Assembly (NCBI GenBank): GCA_002737365.1 | Contig: NSIL01000027.1 | Coordinates: 1-32,751, forward strand | Direction of reading: 5' to 3' | Source of the DNA: Acidobacterium sp. | Lineage (GTDB): Bacteria > Acidobacteriota > Vicinamibacteria > Vicinamibacterales > UBA2999 | Length of the DNA stretch: 32,751 nucleotides | Shown here: one piece after another, positions 457-30,738 of the stretch | Numbering within the stretch: the first letter of the stretch is position 1 | How the letters are laid out: every line of letters begins with the position of its first letter | Made by a program: the position numbers and the translations under genes | The notes under the pieces: model-generated | The model's database searches: none | What the model was told of the DNA's origin: nothing | The model's input: the letters and a program-made list of their open reading frames with translations, nothing else

Positions 457-2040
457 TTATGGCGTCGGCAGCGCCGGCATCTTGTCCTTCGGCAGCCGCG
501 GCAGCAGCTGATCTCTCATCGCCAGGTGGTAGACCGCCGCCGCAATCACCATCGCCGACTGCTGCGCATCGTCTTCGATGACGCGCTCGAAGGTGTCGAG
601 GTTGGTGTGCCAGGTGTGTGAGTTGTATTCAATCGGATCCTGCGCGACGCCAATGCCGGGCAGGCCCGCTTCGTTGAACGAGGTCGAGTCGGTGCCGCCA
701 CGGCGACGGCTCTGCGTGGCGCTGACGCCGAAGAAGCCGTTGTCGGCGAACGACTTGGTGGCGCCGCTCAGGATCGCGGCGGCCTCGGCGGGACCAAACA
801 CCGACATGCCGCGCGCGCGACCCGTGCCGCCATCGATGTTGAAGTAGCCGGCGAAGTTGGCGTGCTCGGGCTTGGGGTTCTCGACCATGCCGAAGTGTTC
901 CTTCACATATGCCTGCGAGCCGAGCAATCCTTGTTCCTCGCCGCTCCACAGCGCCACGCGAATCGTGCGGCGCGGCTTCACGCCAAGGGCGTTCAAAATA
1001 CGGATGGCTTCGAGCATGGTCGCGCAGCCGATGGCGTTGTCGGTGGCACCCGTTGCTGAGTGCCAGGAATCGATGTGACCGCCGAGCATCACCACTTCTT
1101 GTGCTTTGTCGGTACCGGAAATTTCCGCAATCACGTTGTAGGCGGTCGCGCCCTCGGGATAGCTCTTGTTGACGATGTTCATCTCGAGTTCGACGGGGGT
1201 GCCATCGGCCATGATGCGCGACAGGCGGCCGTAGTCCTCATTGCGCATTACGACGGTGGGAACCGCCTTGGCGATGTCGAAGGTGCGGTTGTTGAAGGCG
1301 CGAATCTGGCCATGCTCACGGCCCGCGTCATTCACGCGTCCGGCGGCGCCGGCGGTGACCAGGAACTGATCCACCTGTTCGGCGACCTGTCCCGCGGGGA
1401 CGACGTTCGGGTTGGGAGGCGCGGGAGGACCGCCGCCGGGGAAGCCGCCGCCGGCGGGCGCGGTACCGTCGTACTGTGCGCGGACGTCGTTGTCCTCGCG
1501 ACGCTTTTGCGGCGTGAGAATCGTGACGCGCACCTGAGTGGCCGCGCCGACCATCACGAACTTGCCTTTGACCTTGGCGCGGTTGTCAGCAAAGAACTTG
1601 GTCAGCACCTCTTTGGTCGGCTGGTTCGGCACGATCAACTGCACCGCCTGCGCGGTGACCGGGCCGTTGGTACCTGGCGTCCACGCCAGCGCTTCGGTGA
1701 CCAGTGAATCTTTCACGGGCGCGGTGACGTGCACCGACAGCTTTTCGTTCACCCAGCCCGGGTGGCCAAAAGTCCACGGTTCGAGATGCGCGTTCTTCAG
1801 GCCCCAGGCGGTGGTTTCTTTCACCACCCAGTCTTGCGCCGCCTTCAGGTTGGGCGACCCGGTGAGTCGCGGACCATACCTGTCAGTCAGGAAATGAAGC
1901 GTTCGAAGAATCTGGGAGTTGTCGGTGGCTTCACGGCGAATCTTCCACTGGATGTCTTTGTCGATCTTCTCCTGCGCGGTCGGCGTGCCGATCGACAGGG
2001 CGGCAATAGCAAAGGTGAGGGCAAATGTGGTGTAACGCAT
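457..2040 (-). CDS. Secreted M28 family zinc aminopeptidase
   Basis: This encodes an exported metallopeptidase of the M28 (aminopeptidase Y/S) type, about 527 residues long. A signal peptide runs [23 protein letters not shown]. The middle (about residues 115-300) looks like a PA-type insert and holds a Gly/Pro-rich loop, [16 protein letters not shown]. Near residue 320 the M28 zinc motifs follow in order: GGHIDSWHS (His and Asp), ATDNA (bridging Asp), [12 protein letters not shown] (Glu-Glu), NIDGG (Asp) and [11 protein letters not shown] (last His). All ligands appear intact. An in-frame ATG at 2049 would add three residues, but it overlaps the TACAAT box at 2053-2048. I therefore prefer 2040, which leaves that box 7 nt upstream. 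The likely role is releasing amino acids from peptides in the periplasm or medium. The gene is divergent from the aconitase-family gene. Confidence 0.93.
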
Positions 2041-7798: not shown

Positions 7799-7813
7799 CT
7801 TTTGGGGGGAACG

Positions 7814-8974
7814 ATGAGAAGAGACACCGGTCGGCGGCCTCAGCTTGGTAAATATGTATGCGCCCTCGCCATTCTAGTGGCGACCGGCCTCACGCTGACA
7901 GCCCAGAACACGCCGTACTATCCACCGGCGGGTCCGTGGGCGAAGAAGTCTCCCGCGGAGCTGGGCATGGATCCCGCCAAGCTTGCGGAAGCGGTGGCGT
8001 GGGCGCAGACGCGCGAGTCGAACCGCGAGATGGACTTCTCCGACCAGGAGCGCATTTTCGGCTCGTTGCTCGGATCGGTCCCGAACATTCGCGCGCACAC
8101 CAACGGTGTCGTGATCTACAAGGGCTACGCGGTGGCCGAGTTCGGCGATCCCACCTGGGCGGATCCCACCTACTCGGTCGCCAAGAGCATGCTCTCCACC
8201 GTGGCCGGCGTCGCCGTGCGCGACGGCAAGATCGCCGCACTCGATCAGTTGGTCGGCACCACGATCAAAGATGGCGGCTACGACTCACCGCGCAACCAGC
8301 AGGTCACCTGGCAGATGCACCTGCAGCAGGAGAGCGAGTGGGAAGGCAACATGTTCGGCAAGCAGGATAACTTCATCGGCAAGGAAGCCTTCGGCCAGGG
8401 CGAGATGAAGCCGCGCGAGCAGATGAAGCCCGGCACGCGCTACGAATACAACGACGTGCGCATCAATCGCTTCTCACTGTCGCTGCTGCGGGCGTTTCAG
8501 AAACCCGTGCCCGACGTGTTCCGCGATGAGGTCATGAACCCGATCGGCGCCTCGAACACCTGGCGCTGGATTCCCTATGCCAACAGCTTCGTCGAGCTGA
8601 ACGGCAAGAAGGTGGCGTCGGTCAGCGGCGGCACGCGCTGGGGCGGCGGCATGTGGATCAACTCGTGGGACATGGCGCGCTTCGGCTACTTGTGGCTGCG
8701 TGGCGGCAAGTGGGGCGACAAGCAGATCGTGCCCGCTGGCTACGTGAAAGCGGCGCTCACGCCGAGCGCGCACGGACCTGACTATGGCTACTTGTGGTGG
8801 CTCAACCGAAGCGGCAAGGGCCTGCCGGGTCTGCCCGGGAATGCGTTCTGGGCCAATGGCGCCGGCACCAACAGCATCACGGTGTTGCCCGATCAGGATC
8901 TGGTCGTAGTGTGGCGGTGGCACTCCGGAAATCCGGCCGAGTTCGTCAAGCGAATCACCGCAGCGATCAAGTAA
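7814..8974 (+). CDS. Secreted class C beta-lactamase-type serine hydrolase
   Basis: This encodes a 386-residue exported serine hydrolase of the beta-lactamase / DD-peptidase class C superfamily. The N-terminus has a long basic stretch and then a hydrophobic core, KYVCALAILVATGLTLTAQ. Ser121 lies in YSVAKSML (SxxK nucleophile motif). YEYNDVRIN around residue 215 is the candidate YxN-type motif, and ANGAGTNSITVLP near the C-terminus is in the place of the KTG/HxG element. An in-frame TTG exists at 7802, but GGGGGGA (7804-7810) just before the ATG at 7814 is the only Shine-Dalgarno-like sequence, so I use 7814. The substrate is unknown; an esterase or D-amino-acid peptidase is as likely as anything else. 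It follows the M14 gene on the same strand. Confidence 0.87.
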   Translation: MRRDTGRRPQLGKYVCALAILVATGLTLTAQNTPYYPPAGPWAKKSPAELGMDPAKLAEAVAWAQTRESNREMDFSDQERIFGSLLGSVPNIRAHTNGVVIYKGYAVAEFGDPTWADPTYSVAKSMLSTVAGVAVRDGKIAALDQLVGTTIKDGGYDSPRNQQVTWQMHLQQESEWEGNMFGKQDNFIGKEAFGQGEMKPREQMKPGTRYEYNDVRINRFSLSLLRAFQKPVPDVFRDEVMNPIGASNTWRWIPYANSFVELNGKKVASVSGGTRWGGGMWINSWDMARFGYLWLRGGKWGDKQIVPAGYVKAALTPSAHGPDYGYLWWLNRSGKGLPGLPGNAFWANGAGTNSITVLPDQDLVVVWRWHSGNPAEFVKRITAAIK

Positions 8975-8984
8975 CTACCAACCG

Positions 8985-9107
8985 GCGCCGCGCGAGTTGA
9001 CTCGTGCGGCGCGCCAGGAAGAGCGGCTGCTGGCGAGCGGCCCGCGCGCCGCTGAAGACCCGAACTACCGCGCCGGCACCTGGCGCCTGATCCGGTACAT
9101 CTATTAG
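8985..9107 (+). pseudogene. Possible C-terminal gene remnant (EDPNYRAGTWRLIRYIY)
   Basis: After the hydrolase stop, a frame without a clear start reads ELTRAARQEERLLASGPRAA, continues EDPNYRAGTWRLIRYIY, and stops at 9105-9107. The composition and ending look like the tail of a real protein. EDPNYRA also occurs near the C-terminus of the upstream M14 product, which may be coincidence. As with real genes here, the stop is fused to the dispersed repeat. I cannot name the parent gene. Confidence 0.3.
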
Positions 9108-9157
9108 CCACAGAGGACACCGCTATCCTCTGTGTTCTCGGTGTCCTCTGTGGCTAA
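9104..9157. terminator. Perfect 19-bp hairpin of the dispersed repeat, bidirectional terminator
   Basis: TTAGCCACAGAGGACACCG (9104-9122) is the exact reverse complement of CGGTGTCCTCTGTGGCTAA (9139-9157), with a 16-nt loop. It lies between a plus-strand gene end and the minus-strand dipeptidase stop (9158-9160), the usual site for a shared terminator. There is no U-run, so factor-independent termination is inferred from structure and position only. It is the most complete copy of the repeat in the window. Confidence 0.7.
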
Positions 9158-10348
9158 TTACTTAGCGTCGAGCTGTTCGATGGTCGCCGTCGACGGTTGG
9201 CGTGTCTTCTGCAGCCTGGCGGCAACGGCCTCTGCCTGTTTCATCACGCGCAGCACATTCAGGCCCAGGATTTTCTTGAGGTCCTCGTCCGTGTAACCAC
9301 GCTTGATCAGCTCCGCGGTCAGGTCCGGATACTTCGACACGTCCTCGAGACCCACTACCACCTGCGTGATGCCGTCGAAGTCGCCGCCGAGCCCGAGGTG
9401 GTCGATGCCGGCGACCTTGCGGATGTGATCGATGTGGTCGGCCACCTGCGCCAGCGTGGCCTTGGGGGGCGTGGGTCCGCGCTCCGCGGCGGGCTTGGCG
9501 TCGTAGTCCGCGACCGCCTGCGAGATGAAGCCCGGCACGAATGTCACCATCACCACGCCGCCGTTCCTGGCGGTCAGCTGCAGCACGTTGTCGGGCACGT
9601 TGCGAGGCACGTTACAGATTGCCCGGGCCGACGAGTGCGAGAAGATCACCGGCGCCTCGCTCACGCGCAAGGCATCCGCCATGGTGTCGGATGACACGTG
9701 GCTGAGATCGACCAGCATCCCCATTCGGTTCATTTCGCGAACCACCTCTTCGCCGAACTTCGACAGACCGCCGACCGCCGGCTTGTCGGCGGCGGCGTCC
9801 GCCCAGCGCAAGTTGCCGTTGTGGGTCAGCGTCAGGTAGCGTGCGCCGAGGGCGAAAAACATGCGCAGCGTCGGCAGGGAGTCGTCGATCGAATGCCCGC
9901 CCTCCATGCCGATCAGCGAGCCAATGCGGCCGGCCTTGAACGACCGCTCGACGTCGGCAGCGGTGTAGGCCATCTCGAATGTCTCGGGCCACCGCTTCGT
10001 CATGCGATGCACGATGTCGATTTGTTCCAAGGTGACGCGGACCGCCTCCTGGCCCGTCATCGTTGACGGCGTGTAGACCGACCAGAACTGTCCGCCCAGG
10101 CCGCCCAGCCGCAGCCGCGGAATGTCGGTCATCAGCGACGGCACCGGCTTGGAGATCTCCGCCTTGCTGAAGTCGCGGCCCGGATCCAATCCGCGTAGCG
10201 CCCAGGGGTAATCGTTGTGCCCGTCGATCAGTGGCACCTGCTGATGGAGCGCCCGGGCTCTGGTGAGCGGGTCTTGGGCCAATGCCGGGTTGCCAACGAT
10301 TATCACGGTGACGGTAACCAACGCGAGCAGTGAAAGGTATCGGAACAT
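9158..10348 (-). CDS. Secreted membrane-type dipeptidase, M19 family
   Basis: This is a 396-residue exported zinc dipeptidase of the renal dipeptidase family, cleaving dipeptides (often also D-amino-acid or beta-lactam-like substrates in the family). The signal peptide is MFRYLSLLALVTVTVIIVGN then PALAQ. Metal and active-site motifs are all present: IDGHNDYPW (His44, Asp46), GMEGGHSIDD (bridging Glu), VDLSHVSSDTM (His), FSHSSARAICNVPRN (His and Arg) and LGGDFDGI (Asp). An in-frame start at 10366 would add MWQDLT. The ATG at 10348 has AGGA 7 nt upstream and gives a clean signal peptide, so I chose it. It probably finishes degradation of peptides released by the neighbouring exopeptidases. Confidence 0.93.
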   Translation of the reverse strand: MFRYLSLLALVTVTVIIVGNPALAQDPLTRARALHQQVPLIDGHNDYPWALRGLDPGRDFSKAEISKPVPSLMTDIPRLRLGGLGGQFWSVYTPSTMTGQEAVRVTLEQIDIVHRMTKRWPETFEMAYTAADVERSFKAGRIGSLIGMEGGHSIDDSLPTLRMFFALGARYLTLTHNGNLRWADAAADKPAVGGLSKFGEEVVREMNRMGMLVDLSHVSSDTMADALRVSEAPVIFSHSSARAICNVPRNVPDNVLQLTARNGGVVMVTFVPGFISQAVADYDAKPAAERGPTPPKATLAQVADHIDHIRKVAGIDHLGLGGDFDGITQVVVGLEDVSKYPDLTAELIKRGYTDEDLKKILGLNVLRVMKQAEAVAARLQKTRQPSTATIEQLDAK

Positions 10349-16025: not shown

Positions 16026-17843
16026 CTATTTCCGCGCCGCCGGCGTCAGCGACGTCTCGCGCTTCTCGCTGCCACGCATGTAGAGCACTTTCGCCGGCTG
16101 GCCGATCTTCAGCAACTCCAGCGCAAACGTGTAGTCGTAGATGTTGGTGATCGACTGGCCAGCAATCTCGATCACCACGTCACCTTTGGCCAGCCCCGCC
16201 TGTTCCGCCGGACCACCGCCGATGACGCCGCCCAGCAGCAGGCCCTTCACATCCGACGCGTAGTCGGGAATCGTGCCTGTGAACAGGCGCAGGCCCGCGC
16301 GGCCGCCGGTCTCGGTTTTCTGCTCGACCTTGGTGAACAACGGCGCCTCGGGCGAATCCATCAGGCGCTTGATCACGCCCGACGCCAGCTCGCCGACCCG
16401 CACGAGATCCTCGTAGTTGATCTTGTCAGCGGTGTCGCTCGGCCGGTGGTACTCCTGATGGGCACCGGTGAAAAACGTCAGGCACGCCACGCTGGCGGTA
16501 TTGAAGCTGCCGACGTCAGTCGGCTGGTAGGGATCCTCCTGCAGCACCAGGTCGAAGCCGGCAGCGATGTTGGCCTGCTCGAGCAGCTTCGGCCACATCG
16601 CGCTGGTGCCCGTCGCCTGCACGGTGAGCTTGTTGTCAGCGACGCGGCCGACCATGTCGAAGTTGAGGTACCCCGCCAGGGCGTCGAGCGGCACCGGCGG
16701 CTTGGCCACAAACGCGGCCGAGCCCAGCAGGCCCAGTTCTTCTCCCGACCATAAGGCGATCAGCAGGTGGCGCTTGCGCGGCTGCGTGCTGAGCGCCTCA
16801 CCGATGGCCAGCACCGTCGCCGTGCCCGACGCGTTGTCATCGGCCCCGTGGTGAATGGCGTTGGCCTCTTCCTTGCCGGCCAGCGAGCCGCCGGTCGTGC
16901 CGCGGCCGAGGTGATCGTAGTGCGCGCCGACCGCGACCCACGGCTTGACCACGCCGGTCAGTGGCGTCGTCGCCGGCAGGTACGCGACGACGTTGTTGCC
17001 GGTTTGCTGCTGGCGGATCACGTTGGTCTTGAGCGTCACCGTAATGCCCGGGATGGCGAAGCCCGCCACATGCGGGTTGCCGCTGTCGAATTCCTTCTGC
17101 ACCGCGCCAAGCGACTTGCCTGCCGCCGCCATGATCGGCGCAAACGCATCGCCGCTGACGCTGGCCGCGGCAATGCCCGAACCGGCAATCGCGGTATCAA
17201 AGCTCATCGGCACCACGGTGCCGGCATTAGGCGAGTTTGGACCGGTGATCACGATCATGCCTTTGGCGCCGCGCTGGCGCGCCGCCTGGGCCTTGTAGCG
17301 AAGATCGGCGTAGCGCGCGAGAATGGCGCGCGTCTTCTGATCGGCGTCTTCCGGGAAGTAGCGGAACACGACGACGATCTTGTCCTTGACTTCGAGACCG
17401 GCGTAGCTGTCGTAGCCGAAGTTTTGCGCCTCGGGCACCACCAGCCCATATCCGGCAAACACCACGCGCCCAGTAGCCTCGACCGTATCGGAGAACGACA
17501 ATGCCTGGACGATGGCCGCGCCCGTGAAGGTCTGCGCGCCGCCCGCGTCCCTGGTGATCGTCATCGTGGTGCCGCCGTCCTTCGAGCCGGCGGTGAACGT
17601 GAACGGCATGCGGAAGTCGGTCAAGCCCGGCAGCGGCTTGGCGCCGATCCGCTTCAGCTCGCTGATGATGTAGTCGGCGGCCAGCTTCTCACCGGGCGAA
17701 CCCGTGAGCCGGCCCTCGAACTTGTCGGCTGCCAGCGTCTCGACCTGCGTCTTGGTCCGCGACTGCACGGCGGTGGATTGCGCATGCGGCGCAGCAACGG
17801 CCGCGAGCGCGATTAACAGCGAAGCGCGAAGTGAGTTCTTCAT
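16026..17843 (-). CDS. Secreted M28 peptidase with C-terminal PDZ domain
   Basis: This encodes 605 residues. The signal peptide MKNSLRASLLIALAAVAAPH ends with AQ. Residues about 110-240 form a PA-like domain (GRVVFAGYGLVVPE, GAKGMIVITGPNSPN). The M28 catalytic core from about 300 has VGAHYDHLGRG (His, Asp), GADDNASGT (bridging Asp), WSGEELGLLGS (Glu-Glu), NFDMVGR (Asp) and EYHRPSDTADKI (His). A PDZ domain closes the protein (about 510-600: GVIGGGPAEQAGLAKGDVVI, NIYDYTFAL). The start is fixed by the ATGA overlap with the end of the upstream propeller gene; upstream in-frame codons belong to that gene. It is probably an aminopeptidase with substrate or partner docking through the PDZ domain. 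Confidence 0.93.
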   Translation of the reverse strand: MKNSLRASLLIALAAVAAPHAQSTAVQSRTKTQVETLAADKFEGRLTGSPGEKLAADYIISELKRIGAKPLPGLTDFRMPFTFTAGSKDGGTTMTITRDAGGAQTFTGAAIVQALSFSDTVEATGRVVFAGYGLVVPEAQNFGYDSYAGLEVKDKIVVVFRYFPEDADQKTRAILARYADLRYKAQAARQRGAKGMIVITGPNSPNAGTVVPMSFDTAIAGSGIAAASVSGDAFAPIMAAAGKSLGAVQKEFDSGNPHVAGFAIPGITVTLKTNVIRQQQTGNNVVAYLPATTPLTGVVKPWVAVGAHYDHLGRGTTGGSLAGKEEANAIHHGADDNASGTATVLAIGEALSTQPRKRHLLIALWSGEELGLLGSAAFVAKPPVPLDALAGYLNFDMVGRVADNKLTVQATGTSAMWPKLLEQANIAAGFDLVLQEDPYQPTDVGSFNTASVACLTFFTGAHQEYHRPSDTADKINYEDLVRVGELASGVIKRLMDSPEAPLFTKVEQKTETGGRAGLRLFTGTIPDYASDVKGLLLGGVIGGGPAEQAGLAKGDVVIEIAGQSITNIYDYTFALELLKIGQPAKVLYMRGSEKRETSLTPAARK

Positions 17844-23214: not shown

Positions 23215-26088
23215 TTAGAAGCGGTATTTCACGCCGAGCTTGAAGACGCGCGCGGCGATGATCTCGGTCGGCTGCAGGTAGGTCGAGCCCACGCGGTTGG
23301 TCTGCGCCGTGATGGTGTTGGTGTTTAACGAGTTGAACAAGTCGAAGGTGCCTTCCAGTGACTGGTTGCCCCAGGTCTTGAACCGCTTCGAGACGCGACT
23401 ATCCCAAATCTTCGTCCATCCGTAGCGGCCTGCCTGCGAGTCGACACGCACGGGTACCAGCACGTTGTTGGCATCGCGGATCTGCACTTCGCGGAAGTAA
23501 TAGTCACCGCTCTGGGCCAACAGCGACGTCGAGTACATCAAGCCCCAGGGCAGGTTGTAGCTGCCGCTGACGCGCATGGCGTAGTTCCACGACGGCTTGG
23601 CGAACGCGAAGTTCTGCACGCCGTAGTTGGTCCCCGTGACCGTGCCGGTGCCATACAGCGCTTCGTTCGGGTTGCGCGGGGTGTTGTCCTGCAGGTCGCG
23701 ATAATCAGCGTCGAACGACACCAGGAAGGTGTAGTTATTCGACAACTGCTTGTTCAGCGTGGTGCCGAACGCGTGGTAGCTGTTGTTGCCGGTGGCCTTC
23801 ACGATGCGCTCGATGTTCTGGCCGAACGTCGGGTAGGTGCGCGGCACCGAGTAGATGGTCAGCACCTTGTCGTCGGCGGTGCCGGTGGTGTTGTCACGAC
23901 CCGGGTCGATGCCGGTCGTGGTCTGCGTGTACGCGTCGTACGGCAGGGCGAGGTTGACCGCCTGGTTGCCGTTGCCGTCCTTCTTGTGCACGTAGTTGAA
24001 CTGGACGGTCAACACGCGGCTCAGGCCCAGGTCGAGCCCGGCGGTGTACTCCTCGACGAACGGTCCCTTCAGGTCCGGCGTGAACGAACGCGTCAAGCCG
24101 CCGCCCGAGGTGGACGTCAGGTTGGCGGGCACCGGCACGTAGGGAATGCGGCCATCCCAGTTCGAGTAGGTGCGCGTGATGATCGCGTTCGGGTTGACGT
24201 CGGCCGCGCCTGGGCCGGGGTTGGCCGAGGCGCCTGAACTGCCGCCCACGTAGCGGCCGTAGCTGGCGCGCACCGCGACGCGTCCCTCGCCGGTGATGTC
24301 ATAGACGGCGGAAATGCGCGGCACGAACGTCTGGTAGATCGGGAAGTTGTCTTCGCCCTTCGCCGCGAAGATGTTGGCCGTGGCAAACGGGCCGGTGCCC
24401 GGGTTGCCCTGCTCCGGCAGGAAGCTCGAGTAGCGGTCGAAGCGAATGCCGACATTCAGCGTCAATTTGCGGCTCACCGTGATCTTGTCGTTGAAGTACG
24501 CCGAGTTGTACCACTCGCCAGAGCCGGTGGTGTTCGGGTAGTCGTAGACCAGGACCGAGTCGGGCCGCGTGAAGCAGCCGTCGTAGTTGGCGGACTCGTT
24601 GCAGGCCGCGTCGCCGGCGACGCTGCGGTAGCGGTACTGCTGCTGGTTCGGGTAGCCGATGTTCTTGGTTTCGATGATGTTCCGCCAGCCGAGATAGCCC
24701 GTCTTCAGTTCATGGTTCTTGCCCCACATGTTGGCGAAGTAGGCGAACGTCGCGCCGTACTGCCAGCGCCGAGGCATCCGGTCGGTTTCGAGGAACGCGC
24801 CGCGCACGGCCGTCGTTGACAGGTCGCTCTTGCGCACGTCGGTCGTCCATGGCACGTCCGGCCACCAGTAGCCACCACGCTGCAGGCTGGCATCGAAGGT
24901 CGCGCGCGACGACAGGACCGACAGCCACTTGAACGACGGTCCGACCAGAGAAAACGAGTCCTGGTTCTGCGTCGATTCGAGCGGCACAAAGCGGCTGGCC
25001 GTGCGATAGGGCTGCCACTTGCGGCCGACCTGGCCCATGGCCTCGAACTTGTTGCTCTTGGTCACCTGGTAGGTGACCTTCAGCGTCGGGTCCTGCAGCT
25101 TGGTGTAGAACTCAACCTGCTGCTTGTCCGACAACTGAATGAAGCCAGGAATCAGCTGGCCGGACTCGGCGTCGCGGTGGCTCGCGTAGAACCACAGGCG
25201 GTCCTTCAGCACCGGGCCGCCGATTTCGCCGTAGAAGTCCTTCTGGCTGGTGAACTTGTTGACGCCGGGCGCGTAGCCCTTGGCCAGCAACTTGGAGGTG
25301 ACGTTGGTGCCCTGGAAATCGCCCGACTGGTAGTTGGCCGAGCCAAGGCCCTTGAACTTGTTACCGCCAGACTTGACCACCAGGTTCATGGTCACGCCGG
25401 GATTCATGGCGTCAGCGCCCTTGGCCGCCGTCGTGATCTGCGCTTCTTCATAGGTGCCAAAGTCGCCGTAGGTCTGATCCCAGATCATGCCGTCATAGCT
25501 GACCACGCCGCCGCCGGCGCGTCCGAACGTGCGCGCGCCAGGGCCCGAGCCGGTGCCGAAGCTCGACCCGCCGACGTCCAACGAGGTCGCATAGAGACCC
25601 GGAATCATCGAAACCAGCGCTGTCAGGCTGCGGCTGGATGGCAGGTCGTCAAGCTTCTGCTGATCCCAGTTGACCGCGATATTCGCCGATTCGAGGTCGA
25701 TGGTCGGTGACTGGCTCGTGACCGTGACGCTTTCCTGCAGCGTCGCCACTTCCAGCTTGCCGTTGATCGTGGCTGTCGCGCCGGCATTCAGGTTGACGCC
25801 TTCGATGTTCAGGGTGGCGAACCCCGGCAACTCGAACGACACCTTGTACTGGCCACCCGACAGCAGCGTGAAGCGATACACGCCTTGCTCATTCGAGACC
25901 GTCGTGCGTGCTCCGCCGATCATGTTGGGACTGGCAATTGATACCGTGACGCCAGGCAAGGCCCCGCCGCTGGCGTCCGTCGCCCGGCCCGTAATTGCAC
26001 CGGTCTGTTGCTGCGCCTCCGCCGAGCCTGCCAGCGCAATAGCCAGCGCCAGCGAACTCAACACCACACTCCAAGACTTCCAATTCAC
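23215..26088 (-). CDS. TonB-dependent receptor with N-terminal CarboxypepD domain (Oar-like)
   Basis: This is an outer-membrane receptor of about 957 residues of the type abundant in Acidobacteria. It has a signal peptide (SVVLSSLALAIALAGSAEAQ), then a carboxypeptidase-regulatory domain (GAITGRATDASGGALPGVTV, EQGVYRFTLLSGGQYKVSF). A plug-like region starts TVTSQSPTIDLESANIA, followed by a long barrel ending VFKLGVKYRF with terminal Phe. The GTG at 26088 has AAGGAG 6 nt upstream and is preferred over an in-frame GTG at 26109, which lacks one and adds seven residues. The ligand is unknown; large oligomers such as peptides or glycans are typical guesses. A TATAAA box lies about 72 nt upstream. 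Confidence 0.9.
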   Translation of the reverse strand: MNWKSWSVVLSSLALAIALAGSAEAQQQTGAITGRATDASGGALPGVTVSIASPNMIGGARTTVSNEQGVYRFTLLSGGQYKVSFELPGFATLNIEGVNLNAGATATINGKLEVATLQESVTVTSQSPTIDLESANIAVNWDQQKLDDLPSSRSLTALVSMIPGLYATSLDVGGSSFGTGSGPGARTFGRAGGGVVSYDGMIWDQTYGDFGTYEEAQITTAAKGADAMNPGVTMNLVVKSGGNKFKGLGSANYQSGDFQGTNVTSKLLAKGYAPGVNKFTSQKDFYGEIGGPVLKDRLWFYASHRDAESGQLIPGFIQLSDKQQVEFYTKLQDPTLKVTYQVTKSNKFEAMGQVGRKWQPYRTASRFVPLESTQNQDSFSLVGPSFKWLSVLSSRATFDASLQRGGYWWPDVPWTTDVRKSDLSTTAVRGAFLETDRMPRRWQYGATFAYFANMWGKNHELKTGYLGWRNIIETKNIGYPNQQQYRYRSVAGDAACNESANYDGCFTRPDSVLVYDYPNTTGSGEWYNSAYFNDKITVSRKLTLNVGIRFDRYSSFLPEQGNPGTGPFATANIFAAKGEDNFPIYQTFVPRISAVYDITGEGRVAVRASYGRYVGGSSGASANPGPGAADVNPNAIITRTYSNWDGRIPYVPVPANLTSTSGGGLTRSFTPDLKGPFVEEYTAGLDLGLSRVLTVQFNYVHKKDGNGNQAVNLALPYDAYTQTTTGIDPGRDNTTGTADDKVLTIYSVPRTYPTFGQNIERIVKATGNNSYHAFGTTLNKQLSNNYTFLVSFDADYRDLQDNTPRNPNEALYGTGTVTGTNYGVQNFAFAKPSWNYAMRVSGSYNLPWGLMYSTSLLAQSGDYYFREVQIRDANNVLVPVRVDSQAGRYGWTKIWDSRVSKRFKTWGNQSLEGTFDLFNSLNTNTITAQTNRVGSTYLQPTEIIAARVFKLGVKYRF

Positions 26089-26126
26089 AGACGACTCCTT
26101 GTCGAGCACTCACCCCATGAAGACAG

Positions 26127-26137
26127 GGGACGGTCCC
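26127..26137. repeat. Palindrome GGGACGGTCCC
   Basis: GGGAC and GTCCC flank a single G in the leader region of the Oar-like receptor gene. From memory, GGGGACGGTCCC is a frequent short repeat in GC-rich soil bacteria, but I cannot confirm copy number here. An operator is the alternative. Confidence 0.35.
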
Positions 26138-26159
26138 AGGGCGGACTCGATCAGGGAAC

Positions 26160-26165
26160 TTTATA
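26160..26165 (-). promoter_or_regulatory. Putative -10 box (TATAAA) for the Oar-like receptor
   Basis: On the minus strand TGCTATAAAG is the most AT-rich stretch between the divergent receptor and M28 genes. It would give a leader of about 65 nt with the AAGGAG ribosome binding site. No good -35 is visible. Confidence 0.4.
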
Positions 26166-26212
26166 GCACTGATTTCGCCACGAAGTTCACGGCGTTGCAC
26201 CCCTCATGCTGC

Positions 26213-26218
26213 GATAAT
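26213..26218 (+). promoter_or_regulatory. Putative -10 box (GATAAT) for the third M28 gene
   Basis: GATAAT ends 8 nt before the ATG at 26227. The intervening CAAACCCC has no ribosome binding site, so a leaderless transcript is inferred. Confidence 0.4.
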
Positions 26219-26226
26219 CAAACCCC

Positions 26227-27597
26227 ATGCGCCAATTGCTTGCCCTCGTGCTGACCTCGGTTGTCTTCACCGCCTCCCCATCCGCGCAAGGCCGTCCGGC
26301 GTGGCTCGATCCGTACCGCGAGAACGCGGAGAAGCTGATGAAGGCGGCTACCGCCGATCAGTTTGCGTGGGACCGTGTCGCCGAGCTGACCGATACCTAC
26401 GGCCAGCGCCTCAGCGGATCCGAAAATCTCAATCGCGCCATCGCGTGGGCGGTGGCGACCATGAAGACAGACGGTCTCGACAACGTTCACACCGAGCGCG
26501 TGATGGTGCCGAAGTGGGTGCGTGGCGTCGAGAGCCTGGAGATCACCAACCCGCCGCATCATGTCGTGCCCATGATCGGACTCGGCGGCAGCGTCGCCAC
26601 GCCGCCGGACGGCATCGAGGCCGAGGTCCTAGTCGTCGCCAACGGCGCCGAGCTGACCAGGCGTGCGGCCGAGGCCAACGGCAAGATCGTGTTGTTCAAC
26701 GTGCCCTACACGAACTACGGCGAGACCGTGGCCTACCGCTCGGGCGGAGCCACCATGGCGGCGCAGCATGGCGCCGTGGCCGCGCTGGTGCGCGCGGTCG
26801 GACCGACCGGGTTGCGCACGCCCCATACCGGCGGCATGAACTACGGCGACGGCGTCGCGAAGATCCCGACCGCCGCCATTCCGGTTGAGGACGCCCTGCG
26901 CATCCAGCGGCTCAGCAACCGCGGCATCAAGGTGCGCCTGCGCCTCAAGATGGCGGCGCATTTCGAGGCCGACGTCGAGTCCTTCAACGTCGTCGGTGAG
27001 ATTCGCGGCAGCGAGAAGCCCGGCGAAATCGTGCTGGTCGGTGGTCACTTCGATTCATGGGATCCCGGCACCGGCGCCTCGGACGATGGCGTGGGGTGCG
27101 TGGTGACGTGGGAGGCCGCGCGCCTGATGAAGAAACTGAACATCCGCCCGAAGCGCACCGTGCGCGTGGTCCTGTTCACGAACGAAGAGAACGGCATGCG
27201 CGGTGGCAATGGCTATCGCGATCAGCATGAGCAGGAAGCCGCCAACCACATCCTGGCGTTCGAGTCCGACTCGGGCGTGTTCGCACCCGCGAGCCTGGGC
27301 TTCTCGGGCTCCGCCGCGGCGCGCCAGATCATCAGCGACATCGCTACCCTGCTGACGCCTCTCGGCCTGCAGAACATCGGCCCGGGCGGCGGCGGTGCCG
27401 ACATCGGTCCCATTGCCACGCTCGGCAAGGTGCCGATGATGGCCTACTCGGGCGACTCGACGAAGTACTTCACCATTCACCACACGCCGGCCGACACGGT
27501 GGACCGGATTGAGCCGGCCGAGGTCTCGAAGGCGGCGGCCGCGATCGCGGCGATGATTTACGTGGTGGCCGAGATGCCGCAGGCGCTGCCGAAATGA
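26227..27597 (+). CDS. Secreted M28 family zinc peptidase
   Basis: This encodes a 456-residue exported M28 peptidase, shorter than the first in the window and lacking a PDZ domain. The signal peptide is MRQLLALVLTSVVFTASPSA then QG. A PA-like insert covers roughly 115-240 (EAEVLVVANGAELTRRAAEA, ALVRAVGPTGLRTPHTGGMN). Zinc motifs: VGGHFDSWDPG near residue 273 (His, Asp), ASDDGVG (bridging Asp), FTNEENGMRGG (Glu-Glu), FESDSG (Asp) and HHTPADTVDRI (His). It resembles the M28 product at 457-2040 in layout but differs in sequence. The stop overlaps the next gene start (ATGA). Likely role: amino-acid release from extracellular peptides. Confidence 0.93.
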   Translation: MRQLLALVLTSVVFTASPSAQGRPAWLDPYRENAEKLMKAATADQFAWDRVAELTDTYGQRLSGSENLNRAIAWAVATMKTDGLDNVHTERVMVPKWVRGVESLEITNPPHHVVPMIGLGGSVATPPDGIEAEVLVVANGAELTRRAAEANGKIVLFNVPYTNYGETVAYRSGGATMAAQHGAVAALVRAVGPTGLRTPHTGGMNYGDGVAKIPTAAIPVEDALRIQRLSNRGIKVRLRLKMAAHFEADVESFNVVGEIRGSEKPGEIVLVGGHFDSWDPGTGASDDGVGCVVTWEAARLMKKLNIRPKRTVRVVLFTNEENGMRGGNGYRDQHEQEAANHILAFESDSGVFAPASLGFSGSAAARQIISDIATLLTPLGLQNIGPGGGGADIGPIATLGKVPMMAYSGDSTKYFTIHHTPADTVDRIEPAEVSKAAAAIAAMIYVVAEMPQALPK

Positions 27598-27962
27598 TCG
27601 CCGTCCTCGTCGCGACACTACTCTCGCTGGCGACCCAGCCGGCTCCCACCGCGACCGATGCGACGGTGGTCGTGTCGGGCGCCACCGCGTCAGTCTACGT
27701 GGCGATCAACAACCCGACGATGTACGACATCTACGTGGTGTCGGCGACGAGTGACGCGGCGGGGAAGGTGGAACTCTACTCCGCCGACAAGCCGGTCGAC
27801 AACATGACGGTCGCGGCGTACGGGTGGTTGGAACTGAGGGCGGGCGGGATGTTCCTGCGCTTGTCGGACCTGAAGCGCGAACTGAAGGCAGGCGATTCAA
27901 TCACCATCACGATGGTGACCGACGGCGGTGTCACGATCCTGGCGGTTGCGGCCGTAAAGTAG
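27594..27962 (+). CDS. PCu(A)C/DUF461-like secreted protein lacking copper histidines
   Basis: This encodes 122 residues with a short signal sequence (MIAVLVATLLSLATQPAPTA). The body follows the PCu(A)C copper-chaperone pattern: TASVYVAINNPTMYDIYVVS matches the family's N/P-rich strand, GKVELY the ELH position, and LELRAGGMFLRLSDLKRELK with AGDSITITM the HLMLxxLxxPLxxGD region. In the family, copper is bound by two His and two Met (H-x-M type motif). Here the first His is Tyr and the HLML segment is MFLRL, so both histidines are missing while Met residues remain. It probably does not bind copper in the standard way. It is translationally coupled to the M28 peptidase by a 4-nt overlap. Confidence 0.72.
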   Translation: MIAVLVATLLSLATQPAPTATDATVVVSGATASVYVAINNPTMYDIYVVSATSDAAGKVELYSADKPVDNMTVAAYGWLELRAGGMFLRLSDLKRELKAGDSITITMVTDGGVTILAVAAVK

Positions 27963-27986
27963 GGCCCCCCTGTTAGGGGGGCCCTA
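27960..27986. terminator. Strong 11-bp GC hairpin, bidirectional terminator
   Basis: TAGGGCCCCCC (27960-27970) pairs perfectly with GGGGGGCCCTA (27976-27986) around the loop TGTTA. The stem includes the stop codon of the PCu(A)C-like gene and ends 4 nt before the stop of the convergent cytochrome gene. It lacks a T-run, but position and stability make a shared terminator likely. Confidence 0.75.
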
Positions 27987-27990
27987 CCCG

Positions 27991-28413
27991 TTAGCCCTTC
28001 TTGATCGTGAAAGCGCCCGGCGCGCCCTCGCGGTACTTCGCGTGGCAGGTCTGGCAGGTGCCACCGAGTTCCTTCATCGCGCCCATAATCGCTTCGGGGC
28101 CCGACGCCTTGGCAATGGCATCGGCATGCTTCATTGCCGCGGCCGCCCATTCGGCGGCTTCGGTGTTCTTGCGTTCGGTCCAGAACCCCTGCACGTCCTT
28201 GAACAGGGCCACCATCTTGGTGGCTTCGGCCGAAATACCGGCCGCGTTCATTTCTTTGGCGGCGCCGCGCATGGCGCCGTTGGCTGCACCGACAGCCTTC
28301 ATCAGCTTGTCGTAGTCTTCATCGGTCTTGGCCTGCGCGAGCGAGCTCACCGACATCGTGACGGCGAACGCCAAGGCCAATCCGGCCGCTGTTAGAAAAC
28401 GAGTAACGCGCAT
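27991..28413 (-). CDS. Cytochrome c', periplasmic four-helix type
   Basis: This encodes 140 residues. A signal peptide (MRVTRFLTAAGLALAFAVTM, then SVSSLAQA) is followed by a helical body (DEDYDKLMKAVGAANGAMRG, NTEAAEWAAAAMKHADAIAK). A single haem-binding CQTCH sits 21 residues from the end, followed by AKYREG. A C-terminal CxxCH in a four-helix bundle is diagnostic of class II cytochromes c (cytochrome c'), which bind NO/CO or carry electrons in the periplasm. The ATG at 28413 has GGAGGA 3 nt upstream; a longer in-frame start is rejected. No c-type maturation or oxidase genes are nearby, so its partner is unknown. Confidence 0.88.
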   Translation of the reverse strand: MRVTRFLTAAGLALAFAVTMSVSSLAQAKTDEDYDKLMKAVGAANGAMRGAAKEMNAAGISAEATKMVALFKDVQGFWTERKNTEAAEWAAAAMKHADAIAKASGPEAIMGAMKELGGTCQTCHAKYREGAPGAFTIKKG

Positions 28414-28490
28414 GTGTCCTCCCGGGACGTTGAGGGCAGCAAAATGCGGCCCAGTGCGCCCGAAGAATACCATGACGCCATAGTGCCCGG

Positions 28491-28577
28491 ATGACGAAAG
28501 GCACCCTCGGCCTCACCCTCGCCCTGGCCGTCACGGCCTCGGTGACCTGCCTGGAACTTGGCTCCAGGCGGGTCTTT
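28491..28577 (+). other. Orphan signal-peptide-like start, possible gene remnant
   Basis: From the ATG at 28491 the frame reads MTKGTLGLTLALAVTASVTC, a good export-signal core, but then continues into sequence antisense to the glutaminyl cyclase gene. CATAGT (28479-28484) lies 6 nt upstream, like the leaderless starts elsewhere. GCCTGGA (28549-28555) and TCCAGGC (28563-28569) form a hairpin followed by GGGTCTTTCT, so a short transcript could end there. It could be a truncated gene start or chance. Confidence 0.25.
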
Positions 28578-29345
28578 CTATGGCACCGAGATTTGGTAGA
28601 GGCGCGGCCACTTCTTGCCGGTCACATAGATGCGGCGAGTGGACTTGTCGTAGGCGATGCCGTTCAACACGTCGGCCGGCGGCTGCCGCTGGTTGCGCGG
28701 CCACAACGACGCCAGGTCGATCCACGCATTCACCTCACCAGTGTTCGGTGAGATTCTCGCCACGCGATCGGTCATCCAGACGTTGGCCCAGATCTCGCCC
28801 TCGACCCACTCCAGCTCGTTCAACTGCGGCACCGGGCGCCCGGCGTCGCGCACGCGGATGGTCTTCGTCACCGCTTGGGTCTTGGGATCAAGGAATGTGA
28901 GCGAGTCGGTGCCGTCGCTCATCACCAGTCCGCCGGCCGGATCATAGGCCAAGCCCCAGCCCTCGCCTTGGTAGGGGAAGGTCCGTTTGTGCTTGAGCGT
29001 CTTGCGGTCGTAGACGAAGCCGCGCTGATGCTGCCAGGTGAGCTGCAGCAACTCGTCGCCGACCAGCGCGAGTCCCTCCGCGAAGAACGCGCTGTCGACC
29101 TTGACCTCCTGCAGCACCTTGCCAGTTGCGATCTCGACCCGTCGCACAGACGACTCGCCGTTTAGCCCGGTGCTCTCGTAGAACTCGCCCTCCGCGAACA
29201 CCAGCCCCTGCGTAAACGCCCCCGGATCGTGTGGAAACGTCGCCACGACCTTGAAGCTCTGCACCGGCGCCGGTTGGCGCTGTGCTTCCGTCGCCGGTGC
29301 GTACGCCAGGACGGTCATGGCAATTAGCAGCGTCGGGTACTTCAC
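28578..29345 (-). CDS. Secreted glutaminyl-peptide cyclotransferase, beta-propeller type
   Basis: This encodes 255 residues of the plant/bacterial glutaminyl cyclase family, which converts N-terminal glutamine of peptides to pyroglutamate. A signal peptide (MKYPTLLIAMTVLAYAPATE, then AQ) precedes the five-bladed propeller. Family motifs: FPHDPGAFTQGLVF, GEFYESTGLNGESSVR, FAEGLALVGDELLQLTWQ, FPYQGEGWGLAYD, VMSDGTDSLTFLDP, LNELEWVEGEIWANVW and DVLNGIAYD. The gene starts with GTG overlapping the stop of the M24 aminopeptidase gene (GTGA), so the two are coupled. Pairing of an aminopeptidase with an N-terminal blocking enzyme is notable. Confidence 0.92.
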   Translation of the reverse strand: MKYPTLLIAMTVLAYAPATEAQRQPAPVQSFKVVATFPHDPGAFTQGLVFAEGEFYESTGLNGESSVRRVEIATGKVLQEVKVDSAFFAEGLALVGDELLQLTWQHQRGFVYDRKTLKHKRTFPYQGEGWGLAYDPAGGLVMSDGTDSLTFLDPKTQAVTKTIRVRDAGRPVPQLNELEWVEGEIWANVWMTDRVARISPNTGEVNAWIDLASLWPRNQRQPPADVLNGIAYDKSTRRIYVTGKKWPRLYQISVP

Positions 29346-30670
29346 GGCTTAATCAGGTAGAACGACTCTTGCCGTCCGTCGATCCAGTCCCACTTGCCGC
29401 CGGGCATGATCGCAGCGTCTTCTTCCAGCGCGAACCGCACCGGCTGGTTGCCCCACTCGGGCACGTTGAACGTGACGTTCAGCTCGATCGAGTGCCACGT
29501 ATTCGGCCGGAACACGTAGTCGCCGCGCACCGGCACGCCCTGTTGATAGTCGGTCATCCCAATCGGCGGGCCGGCGGCGTGGCCGTGATAGCCCACCGGG
29601 TGGCAATAGATCAACGGCACGAGGCCTTCCTTCTTCGCCTGGGCCAGCGCGTCAGCAAGCGCCTGGTTACCGGTGCGCTCGAGCCGTGCGTACTGCATGG
29701 TCAGGTCCTGCAGCCGATTGGCCGCCTTCAGCCCCGCTTTCAATCCCGCCGGGGCATCGGTTTCGCCCGGCTTCAGCACGTACGCGTTGTGCTGCGTGTC
29801 GGTGGAGAAGCCCATGTAGACGATCCCGAAGTCGGTGTGGAGCATGTCACCGGGAAGAATCACGCCGCGCGGGCTGGTCTTCTCGCCCTGGCGGAAAATC
29901 GTCACCGACGGCTGGAACCACTTGCCGAGGCCGAGCTCGACGACGCGCTGCCGCATCCACCACACGACGTCCTCGTTCGTCGTCTTGCCGGGCGAGATCA
30001 CCTTGTTCGAGAACGCCTCGCGAATCACCATGTGCGCCACTTTCATCGCGTGGCGATAGGCCTCGAGCTCTTCGGGCAGCTTGACTTCGAGCCAGCCGAC
30101 CGCGAGCATCTCGGCCGACTTGATCTTGGCCGCGTGCGCGGGACCGAGCGCCTCGACCAGGCGGCGCTTCTCGTTGGCGGTGATGCCGTCGGCGTGCTGC
30201 CACGCGTCGGATTCGTTAATGCCGATCACCTTGGGGTTCTTCTCGTCCACCAGCTTGCGCAGCGCGTCGTGCTGGCCGTCGTTGGTCGAGGGCACCATCG
30301 GGAAGATGCCGTCGTAGTCGAAGCGGCCAATGGAATACCGCTCGGCCGGCTTGCCGCCGCCGGGGTTGAAGAACACCAGGATGGTGCGGCGCCGCGACGC
30401 GAAGTAGGTCAGCGGCGACATCGACGCGAACACCGGATCCTCGTTGTACTCGCGCGTCGGGATGATCCACATGTCGATGCCCTCGCGGGTCATCAGGCCG
30501 GCCAGCAGCGTGTCGAACCGCTGCTTGATCCACGGCGTGACCAGCTCGTTCTGCTCACGATGGCTGAGCACGCGCTCGGTGGGATCAGGATACTTAGTGG
30601 ACTGCGCGTCGCCGGCGAGCGTGGCGATGGCGAGCATGAGGCAAACGGATGCAGCGAGTCGGCGATTCAT
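29342..30670 (-). CDS. Secreted M24 family Xaa-Pro aminopeptidase-like protein
   Basis: This encodes 442 residues. The signal peptide MNRRLAASVCLMLAIATLAG continues DAQS. A creatinase-like N-domain (about 40-200) precedes the pita-bread fold. Metal ligands appear complete: HTDFGIVYMGFSTDTQHNAY holds both Asp residues, YCHPVGYHGHAAGP the His, SIELNVTF the first Glu and FALEEDA the second. M24 enzymes remove N-terminal residues, often before proline. The open frame continues far upstream, across the REP-like hairpin and into the next gene, so the ATG at 30670 is chosen because it gives a clean signal peptide. CATACT lies 6 nt before it. The stop overlaps the glutaminyl cyclase start. Confidence 0.9.
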   Translation of the reverse strand: MNRRLAASVCLMLAIATLAGDAQSTKYPDPTERVLSHREQNELVTPWIKQRFDTLLAGLMTREGIDMWIIPTREYNEDPVFASMSPLTYFASRRRTILVFFNPGGGKPAERYSIGRFDYDGIFPMVPSTNDGQHDALRKLVDEKNPKVIGINESDAWQHADGITANEKRRLVEALGPAHAAKIKSAEMLAVGWLEVKLPEELEAYRHAMKVAHMVIREAFSNKVISPGKTTNEDVVWWMRQRVVELGLGKWFQPSVTIFRQGEKTSPRGVILPGDMLHTDFGIVYMGFSTDTQHNAYVLKPGETDAPAGLKAGLKAANRLQDLTMQYARLERTGNQALADALAQAKKEGLVPLIYCHPVGYHGHAAGPPIGMTDYQQGVPVRGDYVFRPNTWHSIELNVTFNVPEWGNQPVRFALEEDAAIMPGGKWDWIDGRQESFYLIKP

Positions 30671-30686
30671 CCCGATAGTATGTACG

Positions 30687-30738
30687 GTGTCAGGCACCAT
30701 TCCAAGAAGTACGCAGTTCTTGGAATGGTGCCTGACCC
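30687..30738. repeat. REP-like 20-bp perfect hairpin
   Basis: GTCAGGCACCATTCCAAGAA (30689-30708) is the exact reverse complement of TTCTTGGAATGGTGCCTGAC (30717-30736), with an 8-nt loop. The outer part GGTGTCAGGCACC is itself nearly palindromic. This is characteristic of REP elements (paired as BIMEs). It lies between the divergent M24 and NHL-propeller genes, just upstream of the M24 start. Confidence 0.75.

Follow-up and report, generated by a model that had tools for sequence, protein, structure and literature searches.

A PCu(A)C-fold protein subfamily without the copper site, found in one order of Acidobacteriota and encoded beside an M28 peptidase in one genus

What does a protein with the fold of a PCu(A)C copper chaperone do once its copper ligands are gone, and does the peptidase gene next to it hold the answer? 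The question arises from a locus in the window (the whole stretch of acidobacterial DNA analysed, 32,751 nucleotides), where a small open reading frame (ORF) starts on the stop codon of an M28 family metallopeptidase ORF. A preliminary description had seen in the small ORF a PCu(A)C-like protein without copper histidines, coupled to a peptidase and not to oxidase assembly genes, and had proposed a repurposed fold, perhaps a peptidase partner. The features of the locus, in window coordinates, are:

26227–27597, + strand: M28 family metallopeptidase ORF, 456 amino acids (aa) (PF04389 Peptidase_M28, 100.6 bits; signal peptide by eye)
27594–27962, + strand: 122-aa protein with a predicted PCu(A)C fold, a member of the MY subfamily, which lacks the copper site (PF04314, AlphaFold2 model, VIA-align)
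27594–27597, + strand: ATGA start/stop overlap, the ATG of the small ORF lying on the TGA of the M28 ORF (sequence)
27711–27725, + strand: codons of the NPTMY loop, residues 40–44 (Met43-Tyr44 invariant across the subfamily)
27777–27779, + strand: Tyr62 codon, at the position of the first copper His (alignment)
27780–27794, + strand: residues 63–67, approximate site of the shortened Met-bearing hairpin (alignment)
27852–27860, + strand: Phe87-Leu88-Arg89, at the position of the canonical HxM (alignment)
27959–27987, no strand: perfect 13-bp palindrome that overlaps the small ORF's stop codon and separates converging genes (folding energy −29.3 kcal/mol, z −4.1)
27991–28473, − strand: converging neighbour, cytochrome c′-like protein (PF01322, 28.1 bits, cut-off 26.5)

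The coupling to an M28 peptidase is as the preliminary description had it, with the ATGA overlap in place at 27594–27597 and a Peptidase_M28 match (100.6 bits) upstream. This gene layout suggests that, in the window's genus, the small protein would be translated together with the exported M28 peptidase. The 27594–27962 product is probably exported as well, to judge by eye from its signal peptide. Where the ATGA overlap is present (four genomes), no Lys or Arg stands at the start of the signal peptide (MIA.., MIS..); same-genus relatives without the overlap start MT.LRT.. or MRT... A shortened n-region of the signal peptide may be a consequence of the overlap. The palindrome at 27959–27987 is the sole copy in the genome, has no T run and is absent from the predicted terminator-like sites; it is possibly a two-way terminator. 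Further downstream (28578–30700), a glutamine cyclotransferase-type ORF (PF05096, 325 bits) overlaps an M24-peptidase-like ORF recognised by eye, for which two tries gave no Pfam match. Rfam gave no match over 25900–28700, PADLOC gave none, and NCBIfam offered no model for the 27594–27962 protein.

The small protein matches PF04314 PCuAC at 48.7 bits (cut-off 29.4, E 7.9e-13, Pfam), which bears out the PCu(A)C signature first seen in the letters of the sequence, and its best match in the PDB is the PCu(A)C protein TTHA1943 (2k6w, 9.8e-7, phmmer). We built AlphaFold2 models from a four-row alignment consisting of the window protein and three relatives. The best of the five models has a mean pLDDT of 83.0, and the other four have 63.7, 62.5, 48.9 and 43.1. 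In a VIA-align comparison, the top match of the model is AccA (9yah, Z 12.1, rmsd 2.0, 98 residues aligned), and the Streptomyces lividans Cu(I) chaperone 3zja (Z 11.9), PmoF2 (Z 10.7), PmoF1 (Z 10.4) and 2k6w (Z 10.3) also score highly. PCu(A)C and PmoF proteins account for all nine rows whose Z exceeds 9, giving the model a cupredoxin-like PCuAC fold; below them come many middling matches to unrelated sandwich folds. These data are best explained if the 27594–27962 protein is a descendant of the PCu(A)C copper chaperones with, as predicted, their cupredoxin-like architecture.

The copper site itself has been dismantled. The defining motif of PCu(A)C proteins is given as HXnMX21/22HXM in the excerpt of PMC13006917 consulted, and in the form H(M)X10MX21HXM in that of PMC9145763. 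In the window protein, the alignment places Tyr62 at the first ligand His, Phe87 at the second and Arg89 at the Met that goes with the second; the HxM Met and the hairpin Met are gone along with the shortened hairpin. Neither His nor Cys occurs anywhere in the protein, which has only four Met after the start. Judged from this alignment, none of the four Cu(I) ligands remains. The replacement of both copper His is thus confirmed, and the loss is wider than had been claimed. The substitution earlier written as HLML to MFLRL holds as a loss, although its register was off by one; the correct pairing is GGLHLML to GGMFLRL.

How far does this condition extend? A PF04314 search of 99 related genomes gave 37 matches in 28 genomes, and the scores are bimodal, with 16 matches at 119–141 bits and 21 at 37–85 bits. 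We aligned the 21 members of the low-scoring group (alignment A1), all of which match PF04314 (21 of 21), and searched the resulting profile over 162 genomes of the window's order. Within the order there are 25 full copies of the low type, here the MY subfamily, in 24 genomes belonging to two families, and 17 canonical copies. Left out of these counts are an incomplete second copy (G463b), a second, longer locus in G003, and L001–L003, the three loci given by a genome-contig search with the window protein alone, which to judge by length and match duplicate the contigs of G008, G005 and G002. The incomplete copy (L115, 11482–11664) shares its contig with a full one (G463), to which it is near-identical over the part they have in common; it may be either a fragment or an assembly artefact. 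Over 396 genomes spread across Acidobacteriota, the low type was present in 11, all 11 from the window's order. Nine matches from outside the order (L082, L083, L087–L093) have no NP.MY motif, and we read them as canonical or as weak and divergent. As judged from these profile searches, whose scope is Acidobacteriota, the MY subfamily was found only in two families of one order, a restriction that holds within that scope. In 14 of the 24 genomes with an MY copy, the assembly contains no canonical PCu(A)C copy. The window genome has no second PCuAC match, and three SCO1 matches lie elsewhere in it.

Comparison of the ligand columns separates the two types sharply. All 17 canonical copies carry the first His, the HxM Met, the hairpin Met, the second His and the second-site Met. 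Among the 25 MY copies, the first three of these are present in none, the second His in 15 and the second-site Met in one. Orthologues of the peptidase pair that keep the full His/Met site were sought, and none was found among the 25 subfamily copies; the complete Cu(I) site is present in 0 of 25. Conversely, Met43 and Tyr44 occur in 25 of 25 MY copies and in 0 of 17 canonical ones, forming part of an NP[TSG]MY loop that is invariant in all 25 and new relative to the canonical proteins. The strand order of the AlphaFold2 model (E31–39, loop 40–45, E46–53, E56–63) would place this Met-Tyr loop, together with residue 62, at one end of the barrel, the former copper end. With the second His still present in 15 of the 25 copies, the loss of ligands looks stepwise. 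In one genome of the M28-linked genus (G002), the first His and the hairpin Met are lost, but the second His is still there together with its Met. From the aligned columns, the window's branch looks to be at the far end of ligand loss, the second His having been lost later there.

Phylogenetic analysis and estimates of selection indicate that the MY proteins form a maintained group. The tree was built from 106 of 137 alignment columns, with the ligand, MY and hairpin columns removed, and is unrooted. In the resulting tree, the 25 MY sequences fall on one side and the 17 canonical sequences on the other, with a branch support of 99/97; one MY row, G460b, sits on a long branch and its place is unsure. 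Because the canonical motif is widespread, we take this unrooted tree to indicate a single origin of the MY type from canonical PCu(A)C proteins. The dN/dS ratio is 0.147–0.339 in 11 of 11 MY pairs tried, as against 0.055 and 0.239 in two canonical pairs; the window's own pairs (0.17–0.34) are looser than most other pairs. Such values indicate purifying selection, not decay. On the profile score, the 25 copies and the dN/dS values, we reject a chance match or a pseudogene.

The genomic context of the two types differs as clearly as their ligands. SCO1 linkage is usual, though not universal, for PCu(A)C genes. By tblastn (E ≤ 1e-10), SCO1 lies downstream on the same strand in 17 of 17 canonical loci and in the retrieved flanks of 0 of 25 MY loci; the SCO1/SenC identity was established on one representative (Pfam, 141 bits), and in all 14 canonical loci with gene calls SCO1 is the next gene. 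The preliminary statement that the small gene is not coupled to oxidase assembly genes therefore holds for SCO1, the one such family examined. Subunit COX2 (PF00116) occurs in 93 of the 99 relatives, with and without the MY protein, so the MY gene does not track the presence of an oxidase. Other neighbours vary by genus. In a third genus, all 4 of 4 MY copies have a creatininase-family gene within 200 bases downstream, and in G013 an M14 peptidase gene precedes the MY copy. A histidine kinase and Fis-type response regulator lie between M28 and the MY gene in a second genus, upstream of 4 of 4 copies, and a pair of this kind is near 3 of the 17 canonical genes. One example is at 7802–9663 (− strand) of L042, with similar pairs in L040, L041 and L045; in looser clusters, kinase- or regulator-type genes lie near a few more copies, both MY and canonical. 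It is possible that such pairs near both types of gene reflect a shared regulon.

Could the protein simply be a partner of the peptidase, binding or stabilising the M28 enzyme encoded alongside? Within the window's genus, the arrangement is suggestive: M28 stands immediately upstream of the MY gene in 8 of 9 genomes, with the four-base ATGA overlap in 4 of 9, and in the ninth (G003) it is also upstream on the same strand, at a distance of 8.5 kb. In the second genus, M28 is 2–5 kb upstream in all four MY-carrying genomes. At E ≤ 1e-100, M28 is present in 66 of the 99 genomes. Its occurrence in 20 of the 21 with the MY protein favours a link, yet it also stands in 46 of the 78 without, so the enzyme does not need the MY protein (kinship among the genomes is ignored in these counts). 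For the remaining 12 of the 25 MY copies, M28 was not found in the retrieved flanks, some of them limited in length (the shortest being 1.0 kb). The pair is adjacent in 8 of 25 copies and within 9 kb in 13 of 25, and it is not conserved across the subfamily, contrary to what a general pairing would lead one to expect. An M28 neighbour is in any case unsurprising, since the 3.05-Mb genome has 21 M28 stretches over the cut-off; the 32.8-kb contig itself holds three M28 domains (window positions 535–1137, 16380–16994 and 26986–27555). Moreover, the converging cytochrome c′-like gene, which cannot be co-transcribed with the MY gene, accompanies it almost as consistently: in the window's genus it is the next gene in 7 of 9 genomes and lies no more than about 1.1 kb away in 8 of 9, so the M28 adjacency may be mere synteny. 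We read the M28–MY pair as the arrangement of one genus within a conserved synteny and not as a specific complex. We reject M28 as a general partner on the genus-local adjacency, on how common M28 is without MY and on the 21 stretches, and the enzyme is probably not a general client of the MY protein. What survives of the suggested peptidase partnership is a weak, genus-level case, which we consider improbable. The same position downstream of M28 could instead preserve a decaying relic whose function is lost. The loss of the second His in the window's branch, the dN/dS of up to 0.34 in its pairs and a signal peptide whose start was cut back to the ATGA overlap would fit such a relic; against these stand the lack of internal stops within the match in any of the copies listed, residues that are invariant across two families and a dN/dS below 0.35 in 11 of 11 pairs, which together make decay very improbable.

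Two further readings leave the protein functional and do not involve the peptidase. It may still be a metal protein, with a changed site for copper or another metal formed by Met43, other Met, Tyr or Asp/Glu residues, and by the second His in most relatives. The retention of that His in 15 of 25 copies and the invariance of Met43 are compatible with such a site, and the PCuAC domains of PmoF illustrate that the fold is able to move its copper site (excerpt of PMC13006917). However, the window protein has no His or Cys and only four Met after the start, the known site is complete in no MY copy, and SCO1, the one copper gene examined as a neighbour, is near none of them; we regard a relocated metal site as unlikely. 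Alternatively, the MY protein may be a copper-free respiratory subunit or assembly helper, or it may partner the nearby two-component system, provided this is of the redox RegB/RegA type, a label we assume here. The first fold row after the PCu(A)C and PmoF proteins is indeed a chain of the Mycobacterium smegmatis supercomplex (8ovd chain W, Z 8.0, rmsd 7.6), presumably LpqE, and the kinase/regulator pair lies upstream of every copy in one genus. LpqE is suggested to prevent an open conformation (excerpt of PMC8523172). A Z of 8 is, however, typical of common sandwich folds, the fold row does not carry the name LpqE, a sequence search with the subfamily profile returns no such chain, and COX2 is present in relatives both with and without the MY protein. 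For the two-component system, Pfam gives just general kinase and regulator domains. A respiratory or two-component role thus seems to us rather improbable.

The reading that we prefer is that the MY protein is an order-specific PCu(A)C protein without the copper site that acts as a metal-free binding module, a proposal to which we give an even chance. The PCu(A)C fold has probably been reused here for something other than copper carriage, and the repurposing suggested at the outset is now supported by a conserved copper-site-less subfamily, a supported branch, a new invariant signature and the lack of a SCO1 neighbour. Because the fold is conserved without the known metal site, we infer a small metal-free binding module that would act in the periplasm or on the cell surface. 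Its contact surface would be the barrel end that once held copper and that, in the predicted model, now carries the Met-Tyr loop. We conjecture, more tentatively and with some doubt, that the module is an adaptor whose copper pocket was dismantled in steps and whose invariant Met-Tyr loop binds an exported partner, possibly a respiratory or hydrolytic enzyme.

PF04314 bears the name 'copper chaperone', and since a whole clade scores above its cut-off without the known copper site, that name would mislead for MY proteins. In the open literature searched, parts of which were available as excerpts, we found no account of PCu(A)C proteins forming a clade devoid of any copper site, a weak absence. 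The MY clade also constitutes a natural series in which the ligands of a metallochaperone are lost successively while the fold remains under selection, so that surface recognition by PCu(A)C proteins beyond copper transfer partners can be asked about directly.

Three known systems frame the MY protein. The PCu(A)C chaperones (TTHA1943/2k6w, AccA/9yah and 3zja) are its closest relatives by PF04314 match and predicted fold; unlike them, MY proteins lack the HXnMX21/22HXM motif, have a shortened hairpin, carry the NP[TSG]MY loop and have no SCO1 neighbour. PmoF1 and PmoF2 of methanotrophs (6p16, 6p1g) likewise have a PCuAC fold without the primary-site motif, and bind copper by a His brace with HX10H ligands (excerpt of PMC13006917). 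The window protein lacks the His-brace ligands; with no His, it cannot form such a brace, and the MY-subfamily profile matches PmoF weakly (E 0.014). LpqE shares a loosely similar sandwich fold, provided that 8ovd chain W is LpqE as we assume. It differs in being lipid-anchored in mycobacteria and in having no sequence match to the MY-subfamily profile. In the mycobacterial III2IV2 supercomplex, LpqE holds the cytochrome domain and is described as a structural subunit. By analogy, an LpqE-like sandwich serving as a structural clamp is a possible precedent for the MY protein.
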